Virus record (IMG/VR): IMGVR_UViG_3300014868_000005
Coordinates: 1 to 36,645 of that record
Strand: one strand, 5' to 3'
From: a virus
Length of the DNA stretch: 36,645 nt
Both the position numbers and the translations under genes were made by a program. Shown here one piece after another: positions 8,725 through 27,735 of the stretch. The notes beneath the pieces were generated by a model. That model made no database searches, was not told the origin of the DNA, and saw only the letters and a program-made list of their open reading frames with translations. The stretch's first letter is position 1; the number at the start of each line of letters is the position of its first letter.

Positions 8725-9923
8725 TATGGCATCCTCCAAGCTTTAACTCTTGCCTGTAGCCAATTTATATTAATTAGATTATCTCTAACTCTAAATCTGA
8801 TAAAATCTGCACTAGAGTTTTGAATTAACATGGGCTTCTGAAAAGTTAATTCTCCCATATAGTTATCTTGATCGTTTAACCATCCTGTGCCCGATGAAGG
8901 ATAAAAACATTTAATAAAAGATAAAGAAATATCTAGGTTATCCTGAATATTGGTTATTTCGTACAATACGCCTTTACTTTGTACTTCTAAAACTAATCCG
9001 TTGGTTAAGGCCGCACCCAATGAACCAAATTCATTAAAATCCGGGCTTGCGCCGTCTCCAATAGCCAGACTTACTGATTCAATAAACCATGTTTCACTGG
9101 CGGCAGGCACAAAGGAAAAAATTTGTGGAGTTACGGCACCATTAACATTTAGAGTTTTAACTCCGGTCCCGTCTAATCGTAAATTTACTATTTTATATAT
9201 TAAATCATTTAGCGGCGCTGCGTTAACCTTACTATGCGCTTCACCTGCCGTTGTAACTAGTAATGTATCTGTTCCATCGCCAATTTTTACTTGGTCTTGT
9301 GTATGGTTTAAATTTCTGATATCTAAGTCTGTTGCCGAAACCGGAATAGGATTACCTAGATCATTTGTTATCTCAACGGCTCCGCCAGAAATAGTTACAG
9401 TAATATCTTCAAGTGCTGCTAATGTGGGAGCGTCTAGCGCAACAATTGAACCGCTTACATCTACCGAGTCCGATGCAAAGTCTAAATCTCTAATATCTAA
9501 ATCAAGTGCAGATACAATTAAAGGCGCAGTAAGTTTGCTATCAATAGAGGTTAAACTAACATTTGCGTCACTTAATTCATCTGATATAACACCAAGGTCT
9601 GCATTATTTTGTGCTGCGAATGTATCAATAGAATCTTGAACATTAGTTAGGTTATCGTTAATTTCATCTAACTTGGTATGTGTATCGGCGTCGCTAGTTG
9701 GAATAGGGTTTCCGACATCATTCTTTACTTCAACTTCATTAGAAACAGTAACAGTGCCATCAAAATTTATATTCTCAAGCGCGTCAATAACTTCATCAAG
9801 TTTAACCTCGACGCCTGGGTCAGTAACAGCAACAAACCGTTCATCTGTGGTTTCATCTCTACGAAACTTCTTATATTCATTATCAAGGGTTGTACCTTGA
9901 CCCGTTAAAGGAATCTTAGCCAT
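8724..9923 (-). CDS. Fibre-like or decoration virion protein with internal repeats
   Basis: 399 aa. Residues about 45-220 carry degenerate repeats. VEVKNDVGNPIP and VEITNDLGNPIP are two copies of one module; SALDLDIRDLDFASDSVDVSG and SATDLDIRNLNHTQDQVKIG are two copies of another. The NDxGNPIPVS motif recurs in minor structural and fibre proteins of many phages, usually as trimeric beta-structure. Residues 230-399 form a non-repeated C-terminal domain (ASETWFIESVSLAIGDG). The protein is likely exposed on the virion, as a head fibre or collar protein given its position after the capsid gene. Receptor binding is possible but unproven. Confidence 0.7.
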   Translation of the reverse strand: MAKIPLTGQGTTLDNEYKKFRRDETTDERFVAVTDPGVEVKLDEVIDALENINFDGTVTVSNEVEVKNDVGNPIPTSDADTHTKLDEINDNLTNVQDSIDTFAAQNNADLGVISDELSDANVSLTSIDSKLTAPLIVSALDLDIRDLDFASDSVDVSGSIVALDAPTLAALEDITVTISGGAVEITNDLGNPIPVSATDLDIRNLNHTQDQVKIGDGTDTLLVTTAGEAHSKVNAAPLNDLIYKIVNLRLDGTGVKTLNVNGAVTPQIFSFVPAASETWFIESVSLAIGDGASPDFNEFGSLGAALTNGLVLEVQSKGVLYEITNIQDNLDISLSFIKCFYPSSGTGWLNDQDNYMGELTFQKPMLIQNSSADFIRFRVRDNLININWLQARVKAWRMP

Positions 9924-10113
9924 TTGCTACCCTCTCGTTCCATTCAGCAAGTGGAACTTTAAACCAGCAAATGAATTTACCATTCTTTAATTGAGAGAAA
10001 TCAAAAAAATCTAACGTCATACCCCAATTCGTCTGAGCAGCTATCGTAAGGATAGATAGTTCCTCGGGCGTATCGGCCTGTAGTGACAATGTTATATATT
10101 TTCTCTCGTTCAT
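9916..10113 (-). CDS. Small protein after capsid gene, unknown
   Basis: 65 aa (MNERKYITLSLQADTPEELSI). It lies just after the capsid terminator hairpin and overlaps the fibre-like gene start by 8 bases, which places the next gene's ribosome binding sequence (GAGAGGG) inside it. It is compact alpha/beta with a Trp-rich end (CWFKVPLAEWNERV). No family recognised. It could be a small decoration or regulatory protein. Confidence 0.6.
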   Translation of the reverse strand: MNERKYITLSLQADTPEELSILTIAAQTNWGMTLDFFDFSQLKNGKFICWFKVPLAEWNERVANG

Positions 10114-10133
10114 AGTTTACCTAAAGAAGACCA

Positions 10134-10149
10134 AGGGGCCGAAGCCCCT
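10134..10149 (-). terminator. Hairpin with UUCG tetraloop after major capsid gene
   Basis: The leftward transcript folds into a six-base stem AGGGGC/GCCCCT closed by an extra-stable UUCG tetraloop, 15 bases after the capsid stop. It is followed by TTGGTCTTCTTTAG, a moderately U-rich tail. This is a good candidate for a partial terminator or 3' stabiliser that separates abundant capsid mRNA from the genes downstream. Confidence 0.7.
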
Positions 10150-10164
10150 CAGTGAATTAAACTA

Positions 10165-11049
10165 TTATAGCTCGAATTTAACGCCGTAAGCGCCGCCATC
10201 CATAAGTGTTAATCCCCAGCCTACTGCGAAAGAGTAGTCAGTGGCACGAATAGTAACGTCTGCGCGTTGAGTTTCATAGTCAAGTGCTTTTTGCATTGCA
10301 GTATTAACGCAATGTTTATGCACAGCATACGACTCATCGTCAGCAAGAAGAGTAGATTTAATTACGGTAAATCCATAAATGCGTCCAACTTCTCCGTTAA
10401 GAAGTGCTTCTCTTGAACCATATTGGTCTGCATTAACAAAGTTATCCATTTTGATGATAGCTTTTTCTTGTGCAGGAGAGATAATAAGAAAACGATTCAT
10501 TGAAGAAACATATTGTTTATCCAAGATCAAACGCGCTTGAGCGATATTTGAAAGACTGATTGTTGCAGTCAATGCAGGAATATCGGCATCTGCGGGACCG
10601 TCATAAGTTACCGCTTGAGTAAGGGTAGCATAGACTACACGAACAGATTCGTCCATGTAACGAGCCATATCTTTACCAGCTTGTGCTGCAAATTCAGAGA
10701 TAAGATTAACTCTGTTTTGAGCAACAACTCTATCGGGCAAACGATAAGACAAGTTTTTCCATTGGTTAAGGTTGATAATGTCAACATCTAATGTTACAGT
10801 TTTAAGTGCAACGGGTGTTTCACCATCAGGATTTTGAGTATCAGGGTCACCAAAACGACGGAAACCTGCGCTATCAGTAGCGTGGAAACGTGGTAATTCA
10901 AGTGATTTGATACCGGGTTGTAAAAGATTAGAACGATCTTCGGTAGTGTTCATTAGAACCGTATTAGCTAAACGGTTTTCCTCAACAATACTTGCAATGA
11001 GTTCCATCTCAGTTACGCCGACATTAGCGGCGGATGTAATTGCAGCCAT
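10165..11049 (-). CDS. Major capsid protein (HK97-fold type)
   Basis: 294 aa, encoded directly after the scaffold-like gene and followed by a strong hairpin, as expected for the most abundant virion protein. The arrangement resembles HK97-fold coat proteins: an N-terminal helix (VTEMELIASIVEENRLANTV); a beta-rich E-loop-like region with SLELPRFHATDSAGFRRFG; a long spine-helix candidate (RVNLISEFAAQAGKDMARYM); and a C-terminal P-domain (NTAMQKALDYETQRADVTIR, AVGWGLTLMDGGAYGVK). No protease or long cleavable delta domain is fused, matching a separate scaffold. The fold is inferred from pattern and gene order. Confidence 0.88.
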   Translation of the reverse strand: MAAITSAANVGVTEMELIASIVEENRLANTVLMNTTEDRSNLLQPGIKSLELPRFHATDSAGFRRFGDPDTQNPDGETPVALKTVTLDVDIINLNQWKNLSYRLPDRVVAQNRVNLISEFAAQAGKDMARYMDESVRVVYATLTQAVTYDGPADADIPALTATISLSNIAQARLILDKQYVSSMNRFLIISPAQEKAIIKMDNFVNADQYGSREALLNGEVGRIYGFTVIKSTLLADDESYAVHKHCVNTAMQKALDYETQRADVTIRATDYSFAVGWGLTLMDGGAYGVKFEL

Positions 11050-11671: not shown

Positions 11672-12136
11672 CTAGCCTTTCTTTATACCTTTATTTAATC
11701 TTTCTTCAACTATATCTGTTATATCTTTAATTTCTCTGCGGCTAAGATTCATAAACTTACGATCTTTTTCCGCATTGTATCTGGCCTTTTTTTCATTGGC
11801 TTCACCGCTTACGAAGATACGCGCTTCATTATTGCTAGTAACTTCAAAATCTACCGAGTCGATCATTGCCCCGGTTTTAGTGAGGTTCGATTTATTTGGT
11901 GTCGTCTCTGGATGTAGTTCGCCTTTGGCCTTTAATCTTTTACGCTCTTTTTTATATGTATCACTAAGAGGTTTTAATTTCTTGGCGGGTGCGCCTTCTT
12001 TGTCAACTCCATAACCTCTACGAGTTCTGGCCTTCACATTAGTCTGAACAGCTTTAGCAATATCAGTCATTAAGTCACGATTAATTGCTTCGGGTAATAG
12101 ACGATTAAGTTTTTTTTGTAAATCTTTAATTGTCAT
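11672..12136 (-). CDS. Virion morphogenesis (gpG/neck)-like protein
   Basis: 154 aa, basic. The middle carries the pattern of Mu gpG-like and other phage virion morphogenesis proteins: TRRGYGVDKEGAPAKKLKPLSDTYKK, then LTKTGAMIDSVDFEV, then a C-terminal RKFMNLSRREIKDITDIVEE helix. These proteins act in head completion or head-tail joining (neck or tail completion). It overlaps the upstream, similarly built 131-aa protein by 11 bases, so the pair may be diverged duplicates or two connector components. Its position between portal and scaffold is somewhat early for a connector. Confidence 0.68.
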   Translation of the reverse strand: MTIKDLQKKLNRLLPEAINRDLMTDIAKAVQTNVKARTRRGYGVDKEGAPAKKLKPLSDTYKKERKRLKAKGELHPETTPNKSNLTKTGAMIDSVDFEVTSNNEARIFVSGEANEKKARYNAEKDRKFMNLSRREIKDITDIVEERLNKGIKKG

Positions 12137-12521
12137 ATCTACTCAATATTAGGTCAAGGTCTGTTTGGCTTATGCCAACAAAGTTCCTGATAGGCTGTTT
12201 ACCTAACTTCTGCCCAGTTGGTCTTTGTATCCATGATGCCTTATCATTTGACTCGGGGTCTATAAATCCAATGGTAATAAATCCTACGCCGTGAGAAAGT
12301 ACCTCTAGGTCGGCCATCATATTACCGCTAAATCTCAAATCCACAGGTTGACCAGATTTTTCATAAGACGGCGCATATTCTCGAAACAAGTTTCCATTTA
12401 CGTCCAGCCCATTCTGCGTTCTTTGTCTTATCAACCTAACTATATCTTCGCCAATTTTTTGTCTCTGTAATACATTATATTTATCTGGGATGCGTATTAT
12501 CTTATTCTGGGAGGGTTCCAT
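12126..12521 (-). CDS. Second virion morphogenesis-like protein
   Basis: 131 aa. Its layout parallels the next gene: a helical N terminus (LQRQKIGEDIVRLIRQRTQNG), the motif GLDVNGNLFREYAPSYEKSG corresponding to GVDKEGAPAKKLKPLSDTYK, then DLRFSGNMMADLEVLSHGVG corresponding to LTKTGAMIDSVDFEVTSNNE, and a C-terminal ISQTDLDLILSRY helix. I infer a shared fold and a head-tail connector or morphogenesis role. It overlaps the portal gene by 20 bases and the next gene by 11, so the three are translationally coupled. Confidence 0.68.
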   Translation of the reverse strand: MEPSQNKIIRIPDKYNVLQRQKIGEDIVRLIRQRTQNGLDVNGNLFREYAPSYEKSGQPVDLRFSGNMMADLEVLSHGVGFITIGFIDPESNDKASWIQRPTGQKLGKQPIRNFVGISQTDLDLILSRYDN

Positions 12522-14040
12522 TGGCGGCCTTCTTTATTAAGTTAGCATCCGATACTCCAGCCTTTTGACGATCAAGTTGTGTAGCTCCAGGAGTCAGTCC
12601 CATTTGCATCATTTCTTTTTTCTCTTTTTTAAGTTCCTCTTCTAACTCTTCAAGTCTGACATCAAGTTGATCTTCAGGTAAGTTAGGGTAGATTTCTTTA
12701 AGTGCTTGTCTCTTAGTAATTAATTTAAGTTCACGAGCAACTTTCATTTTATCGTATTTATCTTTTTCAGATTCGATTGGTTTAATATCGGCGAATTTGA
12801 TAGAAAAGCTTTCAATAAATGCCGGATTAAATTTATCTTTCTTAATTACAATCGCGCCTGTAGACCAGTATGCTTGCATTGTAGAAAGTTTATTCCAAAA
12901 ATCCTTTTCAATCATACGAAATAGTTCTGTTTGTTTTTTACGAATTTCGGTAGTGTCACCTTCGTCGATAATTTTAGAAATACCACTAGATGCATTTGAT
13001 GCTTCAAGTTGACCGATTGCGCCTGACTTTATTCCAACAGTTGACAAGTACGCAGATAATTGAAACTCAATAAGACTTAGAACATTGGATATATCAGTCT
13101 CAGGTTTAATAACTCCGATATCAGGTGTGCCTCCATCTGGAGTAGTATCACCGAGATCAACAATAGCGTCTGGGTTAATATCTGGATTTTGAAGTTGTAC
13201 GTTACGCGTCCATATAACTGAGTGACTCATAAATTGGGCGGAGAAGTTAAGATCAGTTAAAAGTTTAGGAACAAGAATACCTAGGTCATATCCGGTTTGA
13301 TTTGGGAAAGGAACTAGTTCGGTGAAAGACCGATTAATATAAACAAAAGGTATTACCCCAAATGGGTTAACCGTTGAGGTAGCTCCCATTTTAGCCATTA
13401 GATCAGAGCGAACTGCGCCGCTAGAATCAATAACCATAAATTCATCGTCGCTATACAACGCGAATAAATCTACCATTGTAACTTGATCGGGCTTCGGGTC
13501 TCGGTAGCCCATATTATCAGCAACGGCCTCTTGTCTTTGGGTTTCTTGTCCCAAGAGTTTAATAAATACGGTCATTTGATTTGGACTTGTGATGCTATCA
13601 GAAAACGGTAAGAATTGGTGAGCATTTAACAATTTAAGTTTCTGTACTCCCTCCTCTTGATAGATTTCTAATGCACAACGATTATTATAATTAAACGAAC
13701 GATTGGCTTCAGCCATATATGCATTTAGCGATAACGAATCAGTAAATTCGGTAATCAATTCTTGGTCTTTTTCGGAGAACCTAATAGGGGCCTCTGCGTA
13801 AACCTTAGATAATTTGTCAGATACCTTTTGAACTACGTTAATACTGGGGATGCGCTCAACCGCGCGTTTATAGGCAGACGGAGATAACATCTCATTTTTA
13901 AGTGATGCCTCAACCGCTTCACGAACTTGGCCTTCATGTAATTTGTACATCTTTAGCTCAAATTGCATTTGACCCCAATAATTGCGATAATGTGCAAGGA
14001 TATCAGGTATTAATTGAACTAAAGGTTTAGTTGTTTTCAT
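12502..14040 (-). CDS. Portal protein
   Basis: 512 aa, the expected size for an SPP1 gp6-like portal. It follows the terminase large subunit. It has the familiar portal course: an N-terminal helical clip/wing part (VVQKVSDKLSKVYAEAPIRF), a beta-rich middle (FMVIDSSGAVRSDLMAKMG, NPFGVIPFVYINRSF), and a stem/crown region with QLSAYLSTVGIKSGAIG and the ASSGISKIIDEG segment. A long charged C-terminal helix follows (PEDQLDVRLEELEEELKKEK). It forms the dodecameric DNA channel at one capsid vertex. A copy of GACTATACTA plus TATAAT lies 15-25 bases before the ATG. Confidence 0.9.
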   Translation of the reverse strand: MKTTKPLVQLIPDILAHYRNYWGQMQFELKMYKLHEGQVREAVEASLKNEMLSPSAYKRAVERIPSINVVQKVSDKLSKVYAEAPIRFSEKDQELITEFTDSLSLNAYMAEANRSFNYNNRCALEIYQEEGVQKLKLLNAHQFLPFSDSITSPNQMTVFIKLLGQETQRQEAVADNMGYRDPKPDQVTMVDLFALYSDDEFMVIDSSGAVRSDLMAKMGATSTVNPFGVIPFVYINRSFTELVPFPNQTGYDLGILVPKLLTDLNFSAQFMSHSVIWTRNVQLQNPDINPDAIVDLGDTTPDGGTPDIGVIKPETDISNVLSLIEFQLSAYLSTVGIKSGAIGQLEASNASSGISKIIDEGDTTEIRKKQTELFRMIEKDFWNKLSTMQAYWSTGAIVIKKDKFNPAFIESFSIKFADIKPIESEKDKYDKMKVARELKLITKRQALKEIYPNLPEDQLDVRLEELEEELKKEKKEMMQMGLTPGATQLDRQKAGVSDANLIKKAANGTLPE

Positions 14041-15731: not shown

Positions 15732-16172
15732 ATGAGAAAGATTGATCTTGTCGTTGTTCATTGTTCCGATTCTCCAGATTATATGGATATTGGATATAAA
15801 GAAATCAAATCTTGGCATACCGATAAACCGCCCAAAGGTAATGGATGGAACGATATCGGATATCACTACATCATTCGTCGTAATGGTGAAATAGAACAAG
15901 GTAGAAAAGATGAAGTTGCTGGCGCACACGCCGCCGGAGTAAATTCTAATTCTATCGGTATCTGTGTTGTCGGAAAAAAGAACTTTAGTCCCGAACAACA
16001 AAAAAGCCTCACTGGTATTATAAACTGGCTTCGAGGTAAATACAATATTCCTATTGACCGAGTTCTTGGTCATTGCGAAGCTGTCACTACTCCCAAGACC
16101 TGTCCTAATATGGATATGAACAAAGTTAGAGCCGAATTAATTTTTATACAACCCGAACCAAAGGTACGATAA
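15732..16172 (+). CDS. N-acetylmuramoyl-L-alanine amidase (T7-lysozyme type endolysin)
   Basis: 146 aa single-domain Amidase_2 enzyme that cleaves the bond between MurNAc and L-Ala in peptidoglycan during lysis. Zinc ligands are visible as H10 (VVVHCSDS), H114 (LGHCEA) and C124 (PKTCPN). The catalytic Tyr and Lys correspond to Y44 (DIGYHYII) and K122, as in T7 lysozyme. There is no signal peptide, so release depends on the holin at 7244. A TTTGGAGG ribosome site precedes the ATG. It begins a short rightward operon and overlaps the next gene as TAATG. Like T7 lysozyme it could also bind an RNA polymerase, but nothing here shows this. Confidence 0.95.
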   Translation: MRKIDLVVVHCSDSPDYMDIGYKEIKSWHTDKPPKGNGWNDIGYHYIIRRNGEIEQGRKDEVAGAHAAGVNSNSIGICVVGKKNFSPEQQKSLTGIINWLRGKYNIPIDRVLGHCEAVTTPKTCPNMDMNKVRAELIFIQPEPKVR

Positions 16173-16834
16173 TGTTACTTTCCCTTATTTTTTCTTTGTT
16201 GGCGGCACAAGAGCCAACTCTTTTGACAACAAAAAATTACTGTACATTAGCTGGCGAAGTTAATAGCGAGTCGATGCAAGAACTAAAATTCTGTCTAATT
16301 GATCAAGATTTAACTAGAGGAAAAAAAACATATCCAATATATTTAGTTGTTGATTCTGGAGGAGGAGAAATCTACTCGGGACTTCGATTTATTGAATTTG
16401 CAAAAACTATAAAAAATCTTGAAACTGTTACAATTTTTGCTGCATCTATGGCAGCAGGTATTGTTGAGGCTCTGCCAGGTAAACGTCATGCAACAGAGAA
16501 CGCAATCTTTATGTTTCATAGAGCTAAGGGTTCATTTCGCGGTCAATTTGAAGATGGCGAAGTTGAACAACAACTTGCTATGTGGAAACAAGTAGTTCGT
16601 AAAATGGAACAAATGAATGCCGATAGAATTGGTATTTCATTAGCTGTATATAAAAATAAAGTTATTAATGAATGGTGGATATACTGGAAAGATTCTGTTA
16701 AACAAAAAGTTTCAGATAAAATGTCAGACTTTGAATGTAGTAATGTTCTTTTACAAGAGCGCCGCACTGTATCTATTGAGACTTTTTTTGGACCAGTGGA
16801 ATTTGAAGAATCTGCCTGTCCGTTAGTGAACTAA
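16172..16834 (+). CDS. Exported ClpP/SppA-fold serine-protease-like protein
   Basis: 220 aa. It begins with a short hydrophobic signal-like segment (MLLSLIFSLLAAQ), then a ClpP-type core: YPIYLVVDSGGGEIYSGLRF, the nucleophile motif FAASMAAG with S92, and the general base in FMFHRAKG with H116. The third ClpP catalytic residue, normally Asp, appears to align with E167 (NEWWIYW), so activity is uncertain. Cysteines at 24, 41, 189 and 216 could form disulphides outside the cytoplasm. Unlike capsid-maturation ClpP proteins it sits with the amidase, which suggests an envelope or lysis role. A second, cytoplasmic ClpP-like gene is at 27145. Confidence 0.75.
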   Translation: MLLSLIFSLLAAQEPTLLTTKNYCTLAGEVNSESMQELKFCLIDQDLTRGKKTYPIYLVVDSGGGEIYSGLRFIEFAKTIKNLETVTIFAASMAAGIVEALPGKRHATENAIFMFHRAKGSFRGQFEDGEVEQQLAMWKQVVRKMEQMNADRIGISLAVYKNKVINEWWIYWKDSVKQKVSDKMSDFECSNVLLQERRTVSIETFFGPVEFEESACPLVN

Positions 16835-18716: not shown

Positions 18717-18787
18717 GGGCTGGGACGGGAGTCGAACCCGCATCGTCCTGATAACAAACCAGGGTTTTACCATTAAACTACCCAGCT
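18717..18787 (-). tRNA. tRNA-like gene, anticodon uncertain (UGU-Thr by structure; GUU-Asn if read one base later)
   Basis: Cloverleaf on the - strand: acceptor arm (GCTGGG pairs with CCCAGC); U8-A9; D-arm GTTT/AAAC with a GGTA loop; anticodon arm CCTGG/TCAGG with a 7-base loop TTTGTTA; a 5-base variable loop; and T-arm GCGGG/CCCGT with TTCGACT. The loop centres on TGT (Thr), but position 37 is then U rather than the usual A; reading GTT (Asn) with A37 breaks the stem. Base 26 seems missing and the 1-72 pair is A-C. CCA is not encoded. It is embedded among protein genes and begins within the upstream stop codon. Confidence 0.75.
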
Positions 18788-20596: not shown

Positions 20597-20711
20597 TCAG
20601 CGCCTCCGCGATCATATTAATACTAGCCATTAGTAATACATAAGTAATTACTATAGCACCAAAAGAAATCCATAATACTTTTATTAAGTGATCTTCGTCT
20701 CTATTTTTCAT
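20586..20711 (-). CDS. 41-aa single-pass membrane miniprotein
   Basis: MKNRDEDHLIKVLWISFGAI followed by a hydrophobic helix to about residue 36. A GGAGGAGCT ribosome site precedes the ATG. The start overlaps the stop of the collagen-like lipoprotein (ATGA), and its end overlaps the next gene by 11 bases. The acidic N terminus probably stays in the cytoplasm. Function unknown. Confidence 0.62.
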   Translation of the reverse strand: MKNRDEDHLIKVLWISFGAIVITYVLLMASINMIAEALNGL

Positions 20712-21118
20712 AGCTCCTCCACTTCACCATCCACTACCATAAAATAGCACATTTGTGTGTCTGTGGTTCTATAAGTAGTATTGGGGCTTAGCAAGCTTAA
20801 CCCAACATTTAGATACCAGGCTAAAACCCTACCATCGTCCATAATCAACAATACTTCGTCGGGTCCTACTCCATCACCACACGGGTCCACAATACTAAAC
20901 TGGATACCGTTAATTCCGTTTACACCGTCAATACCATTGATACCATCTGTACCAGGAATACCGTCTAATCCATCGCGCCCTGGGTTGCCTGGCGCTCCAG
21001 GAACTCCGGGTGTACCGTTCATACCAGGCTTACCCGGTTTGCCATCCACTCCATCTTTACCATCTTCGGCACACGCCCCCAACAATAAGATTAAACCTAC
21101 TAAGATCATTTTTTTCAT
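20708..21118 (-). CDS. Collagen-like outer-membrane lipoprotein
   Basis: 136 aa from the ATG at 21118, which has GGAGGA upstream. It has a lipoprotein signal (MKKMILVGLILLLGAC, modified Cys16), then about 18 uninterrupted Gly-X-Y triplets from GKD to GIQ, many with Pro or Asp, which should form a short collagen-like triple helix. The C-terminal domain (DPCGDGVGPDEVLLIMDDGR, DTQMCYFMVV) likely drives trimerisation. It is probably displayed on the periplasmic or outer surface of the infected cell. Superinfection exclusion or another envelope change is plausible but unproven. It has its own promoter at 21137-21165. Confidence 0.82.
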   Translation of the reverse strand: MKKMILVGLILLLGACAEDGKDGVDGKPGKPGMNGTPGVPGAPGNPGRDGLDGIPGTDGINGIDGVNGINGIQFSIVDPCGDGVGPDEVLLIMDDGRVLAWYLNVGLSLLSPNTTYRTTDTQMCYFMVVDGEVEEL

Positions 21119-22291: not shown

Positions 22292-22732
22292 TTAGAGATT
22301 ATTAAAGAACTTGTATAATAGACTAGAACGATTATTAAAATAGTATACGCCGCCGATTAGATTAGGAGTCATCACATTAGGGGCCGTATAGGTATGCCCC
22401 TTGTCTAAATCACAATGACCTAGTTCATGCATTATTAAGGCTTCACGCCGCGCGTGACTCATTGCAGCCCATGAAGCCGAATCAATCTCAATAGTCCTTA
22501 GACTGTCATCGTGGGGCCTAATGCATCGGCCTAGTGTGGGATACTCAAGAGATGCGAATCTGATTAGTATATGCCTATATGATTGATTAGTACCTAAATA
22601 TTCAAGCTTAGATTCTAGGTATGTATCAATATGAGAATCAAACTCAATTGACTCAGAATGAATGAAATTAGGGGCCTTGAATGCCCCACAAGAAGTAATT
22701 AGTAATAATAATAAGTATCTTAATTTAGCCAT
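22292..22732 (-). CDS. Lipoprotein zinc metallopeptidase (HExxH type)
   Basis: 146 aa. The lipoprotein signal is MAKLRYLLLLLITSC with Cys15 as the lipidated residue. The active site HELGHCDLDKGH gives H102, E103 and H106 of HExxH; H113 is a likely third ligand, one residue later than in classic metzincins. VMTP (M121) resembles a Met-turn. The protease should sit in the periplasm or at the outer membrane of the host. It ends the amidoligase operon and overlaps the 38-aa membrane miniprotein gene. Possible roles are cleaving envelope proteins or excluding other phages; the substrate is unknown. Confidence 0.75.
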   Translation of the reverse strand: MAKLRYLLLLLITSCGAFKAPNFIHSESIEFDSHIDTYLESKLEYLGTNQSYRHILIRFASLEYPTLGRCIRPHDDSLRTIEIDSASWAAMSHARREALIMHELGHCDLDKGHTYTAPNVMTPNLIGGVYYFNNRSSLLYKFFNNL

Positions 22733-22836
22733 AACTTAATATGCTCGATTGCTATAATGAATGTAATTAAATTAGCTAAAGCAAAAATAAAAAAGGCTAT
22801 ACTAAGACTAATTAGAATCTGCTGAGTCATACTCAT
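22720..22836 (-). CDS. 38-aa single-pass membrane miniprotein
   Basis: MSMTQQILISLSIAFFIFAL followed by a further hydrophobic run and IKLWLN. GGAG lies five bases before the ATG, the ATG overlaps the upstream TGA (ATGA), and the 3' end overlaps the metallopeptidase start by 13 bases. This tight coupling supports translation. One membrane helix spans residues about 6-30. Confidence 0.6.
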   Translation of the reverse strand: MSMTQQILISLSIAFFIFALANLITFIIAIEHIKLWLN

Positions 22837-23039
22837 ATATGCTCCATTGCGAGACGTTTCAATTTTAGAATAAGGTCTTGTGTATCATAGTAAGACAAAT
22901 TGTGTTCTAATGATACTTGTCGTTTCAATGTCTCAAGATTATTAGACACTTCGGACAAAAATTCTACTTGTCGTTGAATGTCTCGAATTGACTCTAATAT
23001 AGTTTCGGGGTATGATTTAATTTCACAGCAATGCTTCAT
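22833..23039 (-). CDS. Small coiled-coil protein, unknown
   Basis: 68 aa (MKHCCEIKSYPETILESIRD). Almost entirely helical with heptad-like spacing (IQRQVEFLSEVSNNLETLKR), so probably a dimer. Two adjacent Cys are near the N terminus. Its ribosome site lies in a 23-base leader that is an exact copy of the leader of the operon's first gene. Sitting between the amidotransferase and the lipoprotein protease, it may be an adaptor or regulator. Confidence 0.6.
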   Translation of the reverse strand: MKHCCEIKSYPETILESIRDIQRQVEFLSEVSNNLETLKRQVSLEHNLSYYDTQDLILKLKRLAMEHI

Positions 23040-23046
23040 TTGTTCT

Positions 23047-23069
23047 CTCCTTGTTATAACTACTAATCG
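23047..23069 (-). repeat. Translation-leader repeat, copy A
   Basis: 23 bases identical to 25755-25777, ending in AAGGAG and positioned just before a start codon. Upstream of copy A is a tandem ATGGGGCCTCAA repeat. Copy B precedes the first gene of the same operon. It looks like a duplicated 5' leader that could bind a common regulator or carry a -10-like TATAAC. Confidence 0.65.
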
Positions 23070-23117
23070 GATTGAGGCCCCATAACTTGAGGCCCCATTG
23101 TAAAATAAATTCTCTAA

Positions 23118-24194
23118 TTAAGACACTTTTTCATTACCAATGAAATATTGAATATACTCGCCATCGGATGTCTCAATTAGACACATTTTCTGTTGTTCTA
23201 TTGTGAGATTATCGAATTGATGCATAGTAATTTCATTACCGTGCTTGTCCCATATAGTACAAGTATCGTCAAGCCTTTGGTCTATAGCCTCAAAAAATTT
23301 CTCTTCAGCGTAGTATTCAGCATCGTCTAAGTCTATATCAGTAATATTATTTCTGTGATGACTACTCCATTTAGCCGTATCATTCCACTGGTCAACAGTA
23401 GTAATCTTATTAGTTGACTGAGAACTATATGAATCAATTAGTTTGCCTAGGCTCGATTCGGAATATTTAGATTGATTATAATTCCAGCCTCTAGGACTAA
23501 TCTCATTGATATAAGTCAATTCATTACCTTTGAATACCATGTATATGTCTTTTCTGACCTCTTCAATCATTTCAATTTCGCATCCAATAGATTTAGCAAT
23601 TGATTCTAATAAGTCTACGGTAGTACCTATTAGGTATGTATCATACTTGTCAAGCCATGTAATATATAATGAAGCCACAGAATCACGGACAATGTGAAGA
23701 TTACCGTTTGGGTCTATACAAGCAAAGGCATAGTATCCAGTCAAGTTGTCTTCTACTGAATTGATTCCCTCAATGAATCTATATAATAGGTCTTCTGAGT
23801 CATTAGTTGTCTGTTTGACATACTCGGGGCCATCGTCTGAAACTACTCCATTGTGAATCAAGTAATGATTGTCTCTAATCATAGGATGACAATTAAGTAA
23901 TCCTTTGTCATTGGTACTAATACGGCCATGCATTATTAAAGGACCACTAGGCTTTGACTTGATTCCAAACTTAGAATATTTTTGAATGATTACACTTTGA
24001 GGTATTTCAAACTTGTAATCAATACGGCTAATAAAACTAGTGTCTACACATTTCTCTCCATATACTCCTGATACTCCTTGAACGGCATAGCCAAACCCAT
24101 CACGTTCTGATTTTAATAATATATTACCCGCTCGATTGACGGTAGTTTTTACGTCTAACTTATTAGCATTTGTGAATACTGCAATTTTACACAT
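23118..24194 (-). CDS. Class II glutamine amidotransferase (Ntn hydrolase) domain protein
   Basis: 358 aa. The N terminus begins Met-Cys, leaving Cys2 as nucleophile after Met removal. GATase-II hallmarks follow: ERDGFGYA (30-37), MHGRIST with R91, NCHPMI (101-106) and LIHNG (112-116). The C-terminal third is acidic and unfamiliar. Such domains release ammonia from glutamine and pass it to a partner. The neighbouring amidoligase is the obvious partner, so together they may form amide bonds on a peptide or protein carboxylate. Alternatively it acts as a stand-alone amidohydrolase. GGAG precedes the ATG; it follows the amidoligase by 14 bases. Confidence 0.83.
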   Translation of the reverse strand: MCKIAVFTNANKLDVKTTVNRAGNILLKSERDGFGYAVQGVSGVYGEKCVDTSFISRIDYKFEIPQSVIIQKYSKFGIKSKPSGPLIMHGRISTNDKGLLNCHPMIRDNHYLIHNGVVSDDGPEYVKQTTNDSEDLLYRFIEGINSVEDNLTGYYAFACIDPNGNLHIVRDSVASLYITWLDKYDTYLIGTTVDLLESIAKSIGCEIEMIEEVRKDIYMVFKGNELTYINEISPRGWNYNQSKYSESSLGKLIDSYSSQSTNKITTVDQWNDTAKWSSHHRNNITDIDLDDAEYYAEEKFFEAIDQRLDDTCTIWDKHGNEITMHQFDNLTIEQQKMCLIETSDGEYIQYFIGNEKVS

Positions 24195-24208
24195 ATCGTT
24201 CTCTCCTA

Positions 24209-25384
24209 TTAGGCGGCATCGTTGCCGCGCTCCTCGTTGTCCTCAATTTGTACATGATTATCTAGTTCTATCATAGTACCATCAATATTTTCAATCAGTA
24301 ATGGCTTATTATTAGCTGTATTAAATTTAGTCATACGCTTGTCATAAAATTCTACAAGTGTATCGTTTAGCTCCAATATGTCAATGAAGTCCTGAAAATC
24401 TTCAGGTTCATGATTCAATGGATTACTACACTTATTTTTGATCTTAGTCCACAATTCAATCCAATTTTTGATCTTATTAAAATTAGTCGTTCCACTATGC
24501 ATTCTAATCTCAATCGTTCTATGTTTAGAATATGAAGTGAGATTGATTGCAGAATACCTGTCTTGACTAGATGCGACAAGTTTGCAATAGTTATTAGTAC
24601 GACGCGAAACGGGCACGAATTGACTTAATATAGGTAAAAATAATGCCATACGTTTTCCCATTGTCATTACATTAGTTGAGTTCCATATACTATGACTAAA
24701 GTCTAAATGAATATGTAAACCACAATCAGAATTGACGCGAGCGCCAAACGAATTTAATATATTACATAGTTTTTCAAGTTTAGCGAAGCCATGCGCCGCG
24801 TCGAATAGGAATGTAATTTCGACTCCGCCATCATCGTCTAAACTGCCATCACGACGTACGGAGCATCTAGTAATTTTTTCACGTTCTAATGCTTGTTTTA
24901 ATTTCATTAGTACATTACTGTCATCCCCATCACAATATACATATCCGGCCCCTTCGCATTGTGGACAGTCTCCTGATGGTTCTCCATCGTCGTCATAGTC
25001 TCGACCAGAACCATCGCAATCGCCACAATCAACTCGACGTTCTGATTCCCTAAAATTGATACCGTCAATATAGCATTCAATCTCAACTCCAACCCAATTT
25101 GTCTTGTCGCTACTATTTCGCGGGGCATGGTTTCTATTACCATCGTTGTCTAATAAGTCCTGAAACGATACTAGAATATTATTAGGACTTTTTCTAGCTA
25201 ATGCGTCGCGCCCCTTAGTCTTAATTAAGTCATTGATTCCATTTAGATTCTGTTTAGAACCTAAGATGCTTAATAAGTATGCACCAAATTGTCTCGAATT
25301 TAGGTGTTTCATTTTGGCTTTATGTTTTCTTGTAATTTTTATTTTTCGATTGATTGAAACTATATCATTTTTAATTTGTATCAT
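24209..25384 (-). CDS. Amidoligase (Amidoligase_2-like) with inserted DnaJ-type zinc module
   Basis: 391 aa. Signature segments of the glutamine-synthetase-fold amidoligases are in order: WVGVEIEC (97-104), VRRDGSL (176-182), GGVEITF (186-192), CGLHIHLDF (221-229) and HRTIEIRMHSGTT (288-300). They would bind ATP and metal and join a carboxylate to an amine or ammonia. Between the first two lies an insertion (120-147) with CGDCDGSG and CPQCEGAG, like DnaJ cysteine repeats, which should bind zinc. The N-terminal 60 residues are basic. It overlaps the upstream HTH-like gene as ATGA and is followed by a class II amidotransferase. The substrate is unknown; envelope peptides or host proteins are candidates. 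Confidence 0.85.
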   Translation of the reverse strand: MIQIKNDIVSINRKIKITRKHKAKMKHLNSRQFGAYLLSILGSKQNLNGINDLIKTKGRDALARKSPNNILVSFQDLLDNDGNRNHAPRNSSDKTNWVGVEIECYIDGINFRESERRVDCGDCDGSGRDYDDDGEPSGDCPQCEGAGYVYCDGDDSNVLMKLKQALEREKITRCSVRRDGSLDDDGGVEITFLFDAAHGFAKLEKLCNILNSFGARVNSDCGLHIHLDFSHSIWNSTNVMTMGKRMALFLPILSQFVPVSRRTNNYCKLVASSQDRYSAINLTSYSKHRTIEIRMHSGTTNFNKIKNWIELWTKIKNKCSNPLNHEPEDFQDFIDILELNDTLVEFYDKRMTKFNTANNKPLLIENIDGTMIELDNHVQIEDNEERGNDAA

Positions 25385-25599
25385 TTTACACCGCCTTGTT
25401 TTAGTACATTTAAAACTTTGTCTAATCCATACGTCAATATTAAGTTCTCTAATTGCAATGTGATAGCCGTATCAGCTTGAGACTCATGCATTAGCCATTC
25501 CCGAGCTATACGACGTTCTATTTTTGAGACATCACTCTTGACGGTATGTCTTGAGATGTCTATTATATTATTAAGTTCAACTAATTTAGCTTGACTCAT
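25381..25599 (-). CDS. Small HTH-like (DeoR-type) protein, possible operon regulator
   Basis: 72 aa. The N terminus MSQAKLVELNNIIDISRHTV continues into KSDVSKIERR and matches the spacing of DeoR-like helix-turn-helix domains (LxELxxxxxISRxTVxxDVxxIE). The rest is helical (TAITLQLENLILTYGLDKVL). It lies between the first operon gene and the amidoligase, with overlaps on both sides. It could bind the operator-like repeats in the divergent control region, but the HTH call is by eye and moderate. Confidence 0.6.
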   Translation of the reverse strand: MSQAKLVELNNIIDISRHTVKSDVSKIERRIAREWLMHESQADTAITLQLENLILTYGLDKVLNVLKQGGVK

Positions 25600-25748
25600 T
25601 ATAATACTCCTTGTTTTACGTTGAATACATGGGTCTTACCGTTTATTTTATTTCTGATACACACATTACCAGTAGACGGGCATGACCACATTATTAAGAT
25701 TTGTCCTTTAGTATCGTATTGTTTTAATTGTTTGAGTAGTTCTCTCAT
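25599..25748 (-). CDS. Small protein, first gene of amidoligase operon
   Basis: 49 aa from the ATG at 25748 (MRELLKQLKQYDTKGQILIM), chosen because AAGGAG precedes it. Upstream in-frame sequence extends to 25889 but lacks a ribosome site and runs into the control region. An amphipathic helix is followed by a beta segment (WSCPSTGNVCIRNKINGKTH). No family recognised. It overlaps the HTH-like gene as TAATG. Confidence 0.6.
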   Translation of the reverse strand: MRELLKQLKQYDTKGQILIMWSCPSTGNVCIRNKINGKTHVFNVKQGVL

Positions 25749-25754
25749 TGTCAA

Positions 25755-25777
25755 CTCCTTGTTATAACTACTAATCG
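25755..25777 (-). repeat. Translation-leader repeat, copy B
   Basis: Exact 23-base copy of 23047-23069 directly before the first gene of the amidoligase operon; it ends in AAGGAG in the leftward direction. Three extra bases next to it make the local inverted repeat CTAATC/GATTAG here but not in copy A. Confidence 0.65.
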
Positions 25778-25827
25778 TCGGATTAGAGAAAAACTTTAGG
25801 ATTATTTTAATTATTTTTAAAAATAAG

Positions 25828-25843
25828 TGGCACGTTTTTTGCA
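25828..25843 (+). promoter_or_regulatory. Sigma-54 promoter 1, rightward
   Basis: TGGCACGTTTTTTGCA fits the sigma-54 consensus TGGCACG-N4-TTGCW exactly, with GG at -24 and GC at -12. The start would be near 25854, inside the operator-like GTATCAAAATGAGA. Sigma-54 promoters need an activating AAA+ enhancer-binding protein, presumably from the host. Confidence 0.82.
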
Positions 25844-25941
25844 ATATAAGTGTATCAAAATGAGAATATCTCAAATTGGAACGTATCATAATGAGATGTC
25901 AAAAATATATACGCCCCGGAATGATACAAATTAAGAAGAAT

Positions 25942-26827: not shown

Positions 26828-27145
26828 ATGAGTGAAGTTAAAAATACAGGTAAATTTGCATTGGTGCAAAGAATCCTGGATGACAAAGGTAATCCTACCG
26901 ATGTTATTAGAGCATACATTACTGACGATATCGTTTTGAAAAAAGGTCAAACGGTATTCTTTAACGGATTTGAAGATGATATCAACGAATTAGTTAAACG
27001 TGAGTATATTACCGCAGAAGAGGGCGAAAAACGTATTGCTGATCGTCGAGCTAAAGATGCAGAATACAGCCAAAGCACAATGTATTCATTGCGAGCAGGT
27101 AATTTACCTAAAGAAAAAGAATCTAACCGAGGAAATACTCTGTAA
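26828..27145 (+). CDS. Early protein, unknown
   Basis: 105 aa (MSEVKNTGKFALVQRILDDK), preceded by TTAGGAGG, one of the strongest ribosome sites here, so probably made in quantity. The N-terminal half reads like a small beta barrel (FALVQRILDDKGNPTDVIRA, LKKGQTVFFNG); the C-terminal part is helical and charged (EEGEKRIADRRAKDAEY). A single-strand DNA-binding role would suit abundance and context, but no OB-fold signature is clear. It joins the ClpP-like gene as TAATG. Confidence 0.62.
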   Translation: MSEVKNTGKFALVQRILDDKGNPTDVIRAYITDDIVLKKGQTVFFNGFEDDINELVKREYITAEEGEKRIADRRAKDAEYSQSTMYSLRAGNLPKEKESNRGNTL

Positions 27146-27735
27146 TGTCAGACCCCCGTCATCAAAAAGTAGATAAACGATATGAGTTGGAGCGGTTCCA
27201 GTTAAATATGGAAACGGCGCTAGAGCGCGGCATCAATTTAGATGCTCGCACTATACAGCTTACAGAAGATATCGAAGAGTTTCATTTCGATTTTTTTGAT
27301 ACGGCAATGACGTTATTAGAGTCACAAAATAGAAGAAAAATTATAACCATAAAGATTAATAGTTATGGCGGAGATGTTCATACAGCGTTGGCTATTATTG
27401 GACGTATGCAAGAGTCAACGTGCGCTATACACACTAAAGGTTATGGTAAAATTATGAGTGCTTCTACTGCAATTTTAGCCGCAGGCGATAAACGTAGTAT
27501 ATCCAGATTATCCGAATTTATGCACCACGAAATGAGTTACGAAGTAGGCGGTAAACACTCCGAAATCCTACACAATGTAAAACAGGCACAGACCCTTTCT
27601 GAGCGTTGGTGTACCCTTATGTTTGAATTAACTGGAACGCCTATTGATTATTGGATGCAGCAAGGTAAAAGTCACGACTTCTATATGTCACCAGAATTAT
27701 GTTTAGAATTGAACGTAGTTGATAGGATTTTTTAA
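27145..27735 (+). CDS. ClpP-like serine protease (cytoplasmic)
   Basis: 196 aa, the usual ClpP length. The family pattern is clear: TIKINSYGGDVHTALAI (oxyanion and substrate strand), KIMSASTAILAAGDKR with S105 as nucleophile, SEFMHHE with H128, and SHDFYMSPELCLELNVVDRI with D178, corresponding to the Ser-His-Asp triad. No signal peptide. Phage ClpP homologues are usually head proteases, but this one is in the early region away from capsid genes. It may degrade or process host or phage early proteins, perhaps with a host Clp ATPase. The TAATG overlap couples it to the preceding gene. Confidence 0.85.
   Translation: MSDPRHQKVDKRYELERFQLNMETALERGINLDARTIQLTEDIEEFHFDFFDTAMTLLESQNRRKIITIKINSYGGDVHTALAIIGRMQESTCAIHTKGYGKIMSASTAILAAGDKRSISRLSEFMHHEMSYEVGGKHSEILHNVKQAQTLSERWCTLMFELTGTPIDYWMQQGKSHDFYMSPELCLELNVVDRIF

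Follow-up and report, generated by a model that had tools for sequence, protein, structure and literature searches.

Pairs of an amidoligase and a class II glutamine amidotransferase (GAT-II) have already been described in phages. A 'peptidoglycan modification cassette' of the LUZ24/phiEco32/RIO-1 type, hypothesized to prevent superinfection, is listed in RIO-1, phiEco32, 7-11, PA11, tf, MR299-2, LUZ24, PaP3 and CW02 (PMC5498523); phage UFV-P2 carries the set found in LUZ24 (PMC3890496), and the set has also been named a peptidoglycan modification module (PMC11945000). The same hypothesis is credited to Iyer et al. 2009 in a passage of PMC10580990. Since 2009, phage amidoligase cassettes have figured as putative genes for wall modification. 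In PMC10580990, more than 30 genomes are said to carry an amidoligase and a GATase as auxiliary genes. As annotated in LUZ24, the cassette includes a COOH-NH2 ligase (gp16), an amidoligase (gp18), a GAT-II (gp19), a RimK-like protein (gp21) and a gamma-glutamyl cyclotransferase (gp22). We found no experimental test of phage amidoligase cassette function in the literature that we searched.

Here we describe a reduced variant of this pair, bearing a zinc-finger-like insert, in a stretch of viral DNA of 36,645 bases (the window). The pair is real, conserved and, judging from its sequences, functional-looking. The best explanation, which we hold at a probability of about one half, is that it belongs, in stripped-down form, to the phage amidoligase cassettes and that its GAT-II would feed ATP-driven amidation of a carboxylate. 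This minimal two-gene form with its catalytic residues intact would be the simplest setting in which to find the reaction of the cassette, and the zinc-finger-like insert provides a handle on the substrate of the amidoligase.

The pair lies in a compact minus-strand gene block

The window record carries tailed-phage genes. Those on its left side encode a tape measure, a tail tube, a major head protein and a terminase; those on its right encode a ClpP-like protease, an exonuclease, an ATPase (AAA_25) and a DNA polymerase of family B. Between the structural and the replication-side genes sits a compact block, all on the minus strand. The first gene of the tight block encodes 49 aa (25599–25748) and is followed by a 72-aa gene (25381–25599) directly upstream of the amidoligase, whose start it overlaps; each of these small genes has an AAGGAG site. 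The amidoligase is an Amidoligase_2 (PF12224) protein of 391 aa, a glutamine-synthetase-like carboxylate-amine ligase (24209–25384; Pfam E=4.4e-19). Fourteen bases past its stop, and with an AGGAG ribosome site, begins the gene for the class II (Ntn) GAT-II, 358 aa long with a C-terminal extension (23118–24194; GATase_6, PF13522 E=1.3e-6). Next come a 68-aa protein, possibly a coiled coil (22833–23039; AAGGAG ribosome site), a 38-aa hydrophobic single-span membrane miniprotein (MSMTQQILISLSIAFFIFALANLITFIIAIEHIKLWLN; 22720–22836), whose gene overlaps both neighbors by a few bases, and a lipoprotein zinc peptidase of 146 aa (PhageMetallopep, 22292–22732; PF18894 E=6.8e-6). The open reading frames of the block, their coordinates, their leftward direction and the 14-base gap had been given by a sequence-only reading of this DNA, and all were confirmed on the minus strand. 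A scan of the block for promoters and terminators returned counts close to the shuffled expectation.

Both proteins retain the catalytic residues of their enzyme families

The amidoligase scored 69.8 bits against the PF12224 profile, for which the curated cut-off is 22. Across 53 aligned homologues, the invariant residues are GVEIE at 99–103, D179, H224, H226, R261, N281, T290, E292, R294, K304 and W308, among which E101, E103, H224, H226, E292 and R294 make up a conserved acidic/His/Arg active-site set. Searched with Foldseek, an AlphaFold2 model of the protein (pLDDT 76.4) matched glutamine synthetase (8fbp, E=4.3e-6, TM 0.36) and YbdK (1r8g, E=1.5e-4), with weaker matches to plant glutamate-cysteine ligase and to Dop/Pup structures. 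The TM-scores are low (0.31–0.36 for matches with E<1e-3), so we base the fold assignment on E-value, profile and motifs taken together. At the sequence level, the amidoligase family matched no solved structure, no cellular or prophage relatives of the window and L002 ligases were confirmed in a search of genome contigs (L002 being a related locus discussed below), and an exact scan for the motif NFNKIKNW returned only 4 contigs.

The GAT-II begins MCKI, which places its nucleophile, Cys2, directly after the initiator Met, whose removal would make the cysteine N-terminal. Invariant in 28 homologues are C2, H89, R91, H103-P104, H114-N115-G116 and D132. We take Cys2, Arg91, Asn115-Gly116 and Asp132 to correspond to Cys1, Arg73, Asn98-Gly99 and Asp123 of GlmS, so that the invariant set would include, as in GlmS-type domains, the nucleophile, an Arg that binds the carboxylate of glutamine, the oxyanion Asn-Gly and an Asp that binds the amino group. 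Foldseek matched the AlphaFold2 model (pLDDT 76.4) to GlmS (3ooj, E=4.4e-10), PurF and the asparagine synthetase AsnB, as well as to EgtC (4zfj, E=5.6e-8; also 4zfk and 4zfl). Compared by sequence with solved structures, the GAT family had its best match in the conserved hypothetical protein 1te5, weakly (E=0.041). A tblastn search of named phages with the window GAT-II gave no match; profile methods, unlike tblastn, detect a GAT-II beside many amidoligases.

Membership of both proteins in their enzyme families is thus firm and, in our judgment, close to certain. The sequence-only reading had made the same two assignments: its Amidoligase_2 protein is upheld by profile, Foldseek and invariant catalytic residues, and its Ntn-type amidotransferase with Cys2 by PF13522, Foldseek and residues. 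With the folds correct and the catalytic residues intact in homologues, that reading of the two enzymes stands.

The GAT-II consistently adjoins the amidoligase

A scan of viral contigs with an amidoligase profile identified 142 relatives, of which 80 were kept, and 83 non-duplicate amidoligase loci, forming 43 clusters at 60% identity, were analyzed. A GAT-II was detectable in 19 of the 43 clusters, a paired fraction that is not free of bias, since paired loci supplied all four seeds, part of the contigs stop close to the gene and the deep forks of the tree are weak. Every GAT-II hit (34/34) lay on the same strand as the amidoligase and at most 1 kb away, a placement shared by only 20% of random genes in those loci; 29 of the 34 were downstream of the amidoligase, and 29 of the 34 were within 200 bp of it. 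The conservation of the pair in phages, on which the sequence-only reading depended, is thereby borne out. On the amidoligase tree, the paired and unpaired states changed at least 6 times.

A second scan, seeded by GAT-II, found a group of phages (L092–L101) with GAT-II genes whose upstream gene carries HIHIN and TVEMR motifs (GGHIHIN, GTVEMRLWGT). The one such gene searched against Pfam, directly upstream of the GAT-II in L097 (5659–6996), had no match. Aligned with the amidoligase profile by hhalign, the upstream gene of this group gave a probability of 68% (E=4.6e-5) over the catalytic region. These upstream genes are probably an unrecognized, divergent amidoligase family, and the motifs and alignment together suggest that the pair probably extends further than the profile scan indicates.

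A zinc-finger-like insert marks a clade of three phages

The window amidoligase contains a zinc-finger-like CxxCxGxG insert directly past the first core strand (residues 116–150; 24935–25039, minus strand), with motifs at residues 120–127 and 140–147. C120, C123, C140 and C143 and the glycines are invariant in two related loci, L002 and L106, and are kept despite an overall identity of 41% and variable spacing among the three proteins; the L106 insert has extra CxxC motifs. The window groups with L002 and L106 in a single clade of remote phages (SH-aLRT 99), and their GAT-II proteins have the C-terminal extension in common. The insert was absent from all other amidoligase loci scanned, which had at most one CxxC. 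Matches to the DnaJ_CXXCXGXG and anti-TRAP profiles were weak and below cut-off, and the region was poorly modeled by AlphaFold2 (pLDDT about 48–58 at residues 111–150).

The insert, which lies beside the ligase core, may bind zinc and probably binds a substrate or partner. One could go further and credit the three phages with a two-enzyme system of their own: a zinc finger would steer the amidoligase to one particular macromolecule (a peptide, a protein or a nucleic-acid partner), and the pair would be a minimal machine for glutamine-fed amidation, distinct from the peptidoglycan cassette. We consider this rather improbable.

The window pair is reduced relative to known cassettes

LUZ24 gp18–gp19 resembles the window pair in that Amidoligase_2 is directly followed by GAT-II, on one strand and near replication genes, whereas the window differs from the phiEco32, LUZ24 and RIO-1 cassettes in the zinc-finger-like insert of its amidoligase. 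The COOH-NH2 ligase (PF14395) was undetected in the window and the L002 contig (it is present in G002 and G003), an ATP-grasp of the L003 type had no match in the window or in G001 (the 78.9-kb contig of L002), and gamma-glutamyl cyclotransferase (GGCT, PF06094) was undetected in the window and G001, absences that must be read against the uncertain completeness of the window, which may be a partial genome, and of the L002 contig. The L003 and L004 contigs, more distant than L002, carry a COOH-NH2 ligase and an ATP-grasp, with GGCT in L004 alone.

Two-gene forms resembling that of the window, with ligase then GAT-II, occur in the Arthrobacter phages Ottawa and Salgado (Laroyevirus), where the gaps between the genes are 77 and 118 bases and no further cassette gene is annotated in the flanks. 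The Arthrobacter phage ligases are about 26–32% identical to the window ligase over 34–38% of its length, and their GAT-II is not detectably similar to that of the window by tblastn. By description, the OM43 phages MEP401 and MEP402 are also alike, with an amidoligase and a GATase of the same two Pfam families (PMC10580990).

The related contigs also varied in their gene content. In the full cassettes of L003 (2697–10303) and L004 (1890–9139), two different GAT-II genes flank one Amidoligase_2; in L004 there are, in addition, GGCT and a class I enzyme of the Peptidase_C26 family. L106 encodes a RimK/D-Ala-D-Ala-ligase-like ATP-grasp (11829–12749), different from the L003 type, about 7.6 kb from its zinc-insert amidoligase pair.

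Proposed glutamine-fed amidation and its alternatives

In the amidation that we favor, the GAT-II would use its N-terminal cysteine to hydrolyze glutamine, and the released ammonia would go to the adjacent amidoligase, which would activate a carboxylate with ATP in its glutamine-synthetase-like site and convert it to an amide. As the class of target we think most likely a carboxylate, glutamate-like or in a peptide, that belongs to host material (peptidoglycan precursors, for example); peptidoglycan itself we put forward tentatively as the target of the pair. The earlier idea of a cell-surface modification acting against superinfection is the standing published hypothesis for the cassette and is compatible with the window pair as a presumed benefit to the phage. 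About half of the related amidoligase clusters are without a detected GAT-II nearby, so a GAT-II may not be indispensable to the ligase.

One argument against amidation is that the structures matched by the GAT-II model include EgtC, which is a gamma-glutamyl amidohydrolase and delivers no ammonia; the main rival builds on this match. EgtA and EgtC of ergothioneine biosynthesis, a glutamine-synthetase-fold gamma-glutamyl ligase and a class II Ntn amidohydrolase, offer an analogue in function: the amidoligase would add a gamma-glutamyl amide to an amine (of a metabolite, a peptide or peptidoglycan) and the Ntn protein would remove gamma-glutamyl groups, so that the pair would attach and trim a glutamyl unit serving as protection or tag instead of transferring ammonia. 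Such chemistry is suggested by the three EgtC structures among the Foldseek matches (EgtC has no significant sequence match to the window GAT-II), by the likeness of the amidoligase fold to YbdK and, weakly, to plant glutamate-cysteine ligase and Dop, by the weak match of the GAT family to 1te5, by the gamma-glutamyl cyclotransferase and Peptidase_C26 class I enzyme of fuller related cassettes, and by the published description of the amidotransferase of the peptidoglycan modification cassette as degradative (PMC5498523). GlmS/PurF-type synthases, however, slightly outscore EgtC, and the window and G001 have no cyclotransferase. Since the glutamyl-binding GAT residues are common to both reactions, sequence cannot separate amidation from gamma-glutamyl chemistry, and we regard the latter as possible, if on balance doubtful.

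The remaining alternatives differ in the target or in the number of genes involved. The pair might instead modify a protein, of the host or the virion, or else a ribosomal peptide. Recognition of the polypeptide would then fall to the zinc insert, loosely as in Pup ligase and Dop chemistry, which would be in keeping with the Dop/Pup structures among the weaker amidoligase matches and with the resemblance of the insert to the peptide-binding zinc region of DnaJ. We think it unlikely, as the DnaJ likeness is limited to the CxxCxGxG motif and falls below cut-off, and no candidate tag protein was identified. Less probable still is a modified nucleotide or DNA base, amidated or amino-acylated, that would protect the phage DNA: amide chemistry on bases is used by other phages and replication genes (PolB, AAA) adjoin the block, but scans of window proteins (part of the open reading frames) against Pfam and PHROGs brought up no base-modification enzyme, and a literature search on amidoligase and hypermodification gave no such system. 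We give least credence of all to one envelope-modifying operon made up of the lipoprotein peptidase, the small membrane protein and the enzyme pair. The genes are tightly spaced in the window, and the peptidase is among the genes best conserved between the window and G001 and is also found no more than 7 kb from the pair in both L002 and L106. These two are nevertheless the only ones of 33 contigs with a peptidase relative to have the pair nearby, the other 31 lacking it in the flanks examined; the L106 relative is on the opposite strand from the pair, and other amidoligase loci yielded only two peptidase hits, both without GAT (L044 and L058). The peptidase was therefore rejected as a conserved component of the system and is best understood as a lipoprotein that is widespread in phages. 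The sequence-only reading had called the block an operon that includes export or envelope components: the tight spacing in the window holds, but the peptidase and small genes are not kept together in relatives, and the envelope components find no support given that peptidase relatives are rarely near the pair and the small genes are without detected relatives in the sampled part of G001.

Other genes of the block and the window

The peptidase has a lipobox (LLLITSC) and an HELGH motif, and is 43% identical to its L002 counterpart, in which the lipobox Cys15 and HELGHCDL are conserved. For the small genes of the block, no relatives were detected in the 54 kb of G001 compared. Family matches of the 68-aa protein were weak, and there were none for the 72-aa gene or for a 96-aa reading (25599–25889) that is the longer form of the 49-aa gene. 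An anti-phage defense system was also considered and rejected, as four proteins had no PADLOC match.

Elsewhere, the window has a single tRNA gene, tRNA-Thr (TGT), on the minus strand (18717–18787), and two ClpP-like proteases on the plus strand (16172–16834 and 27145–27735); the first, which has matches among head maturation proteases, is flanked on either side by leftward gene blocks. At 20708–21118 the minus strand encodes a collagen-like lipoprotein, which has a lipobox (GAC) and repeats of the form Gly-x-y, and L002 encodes a longer collagen-like lipoprotein (9206–10357).
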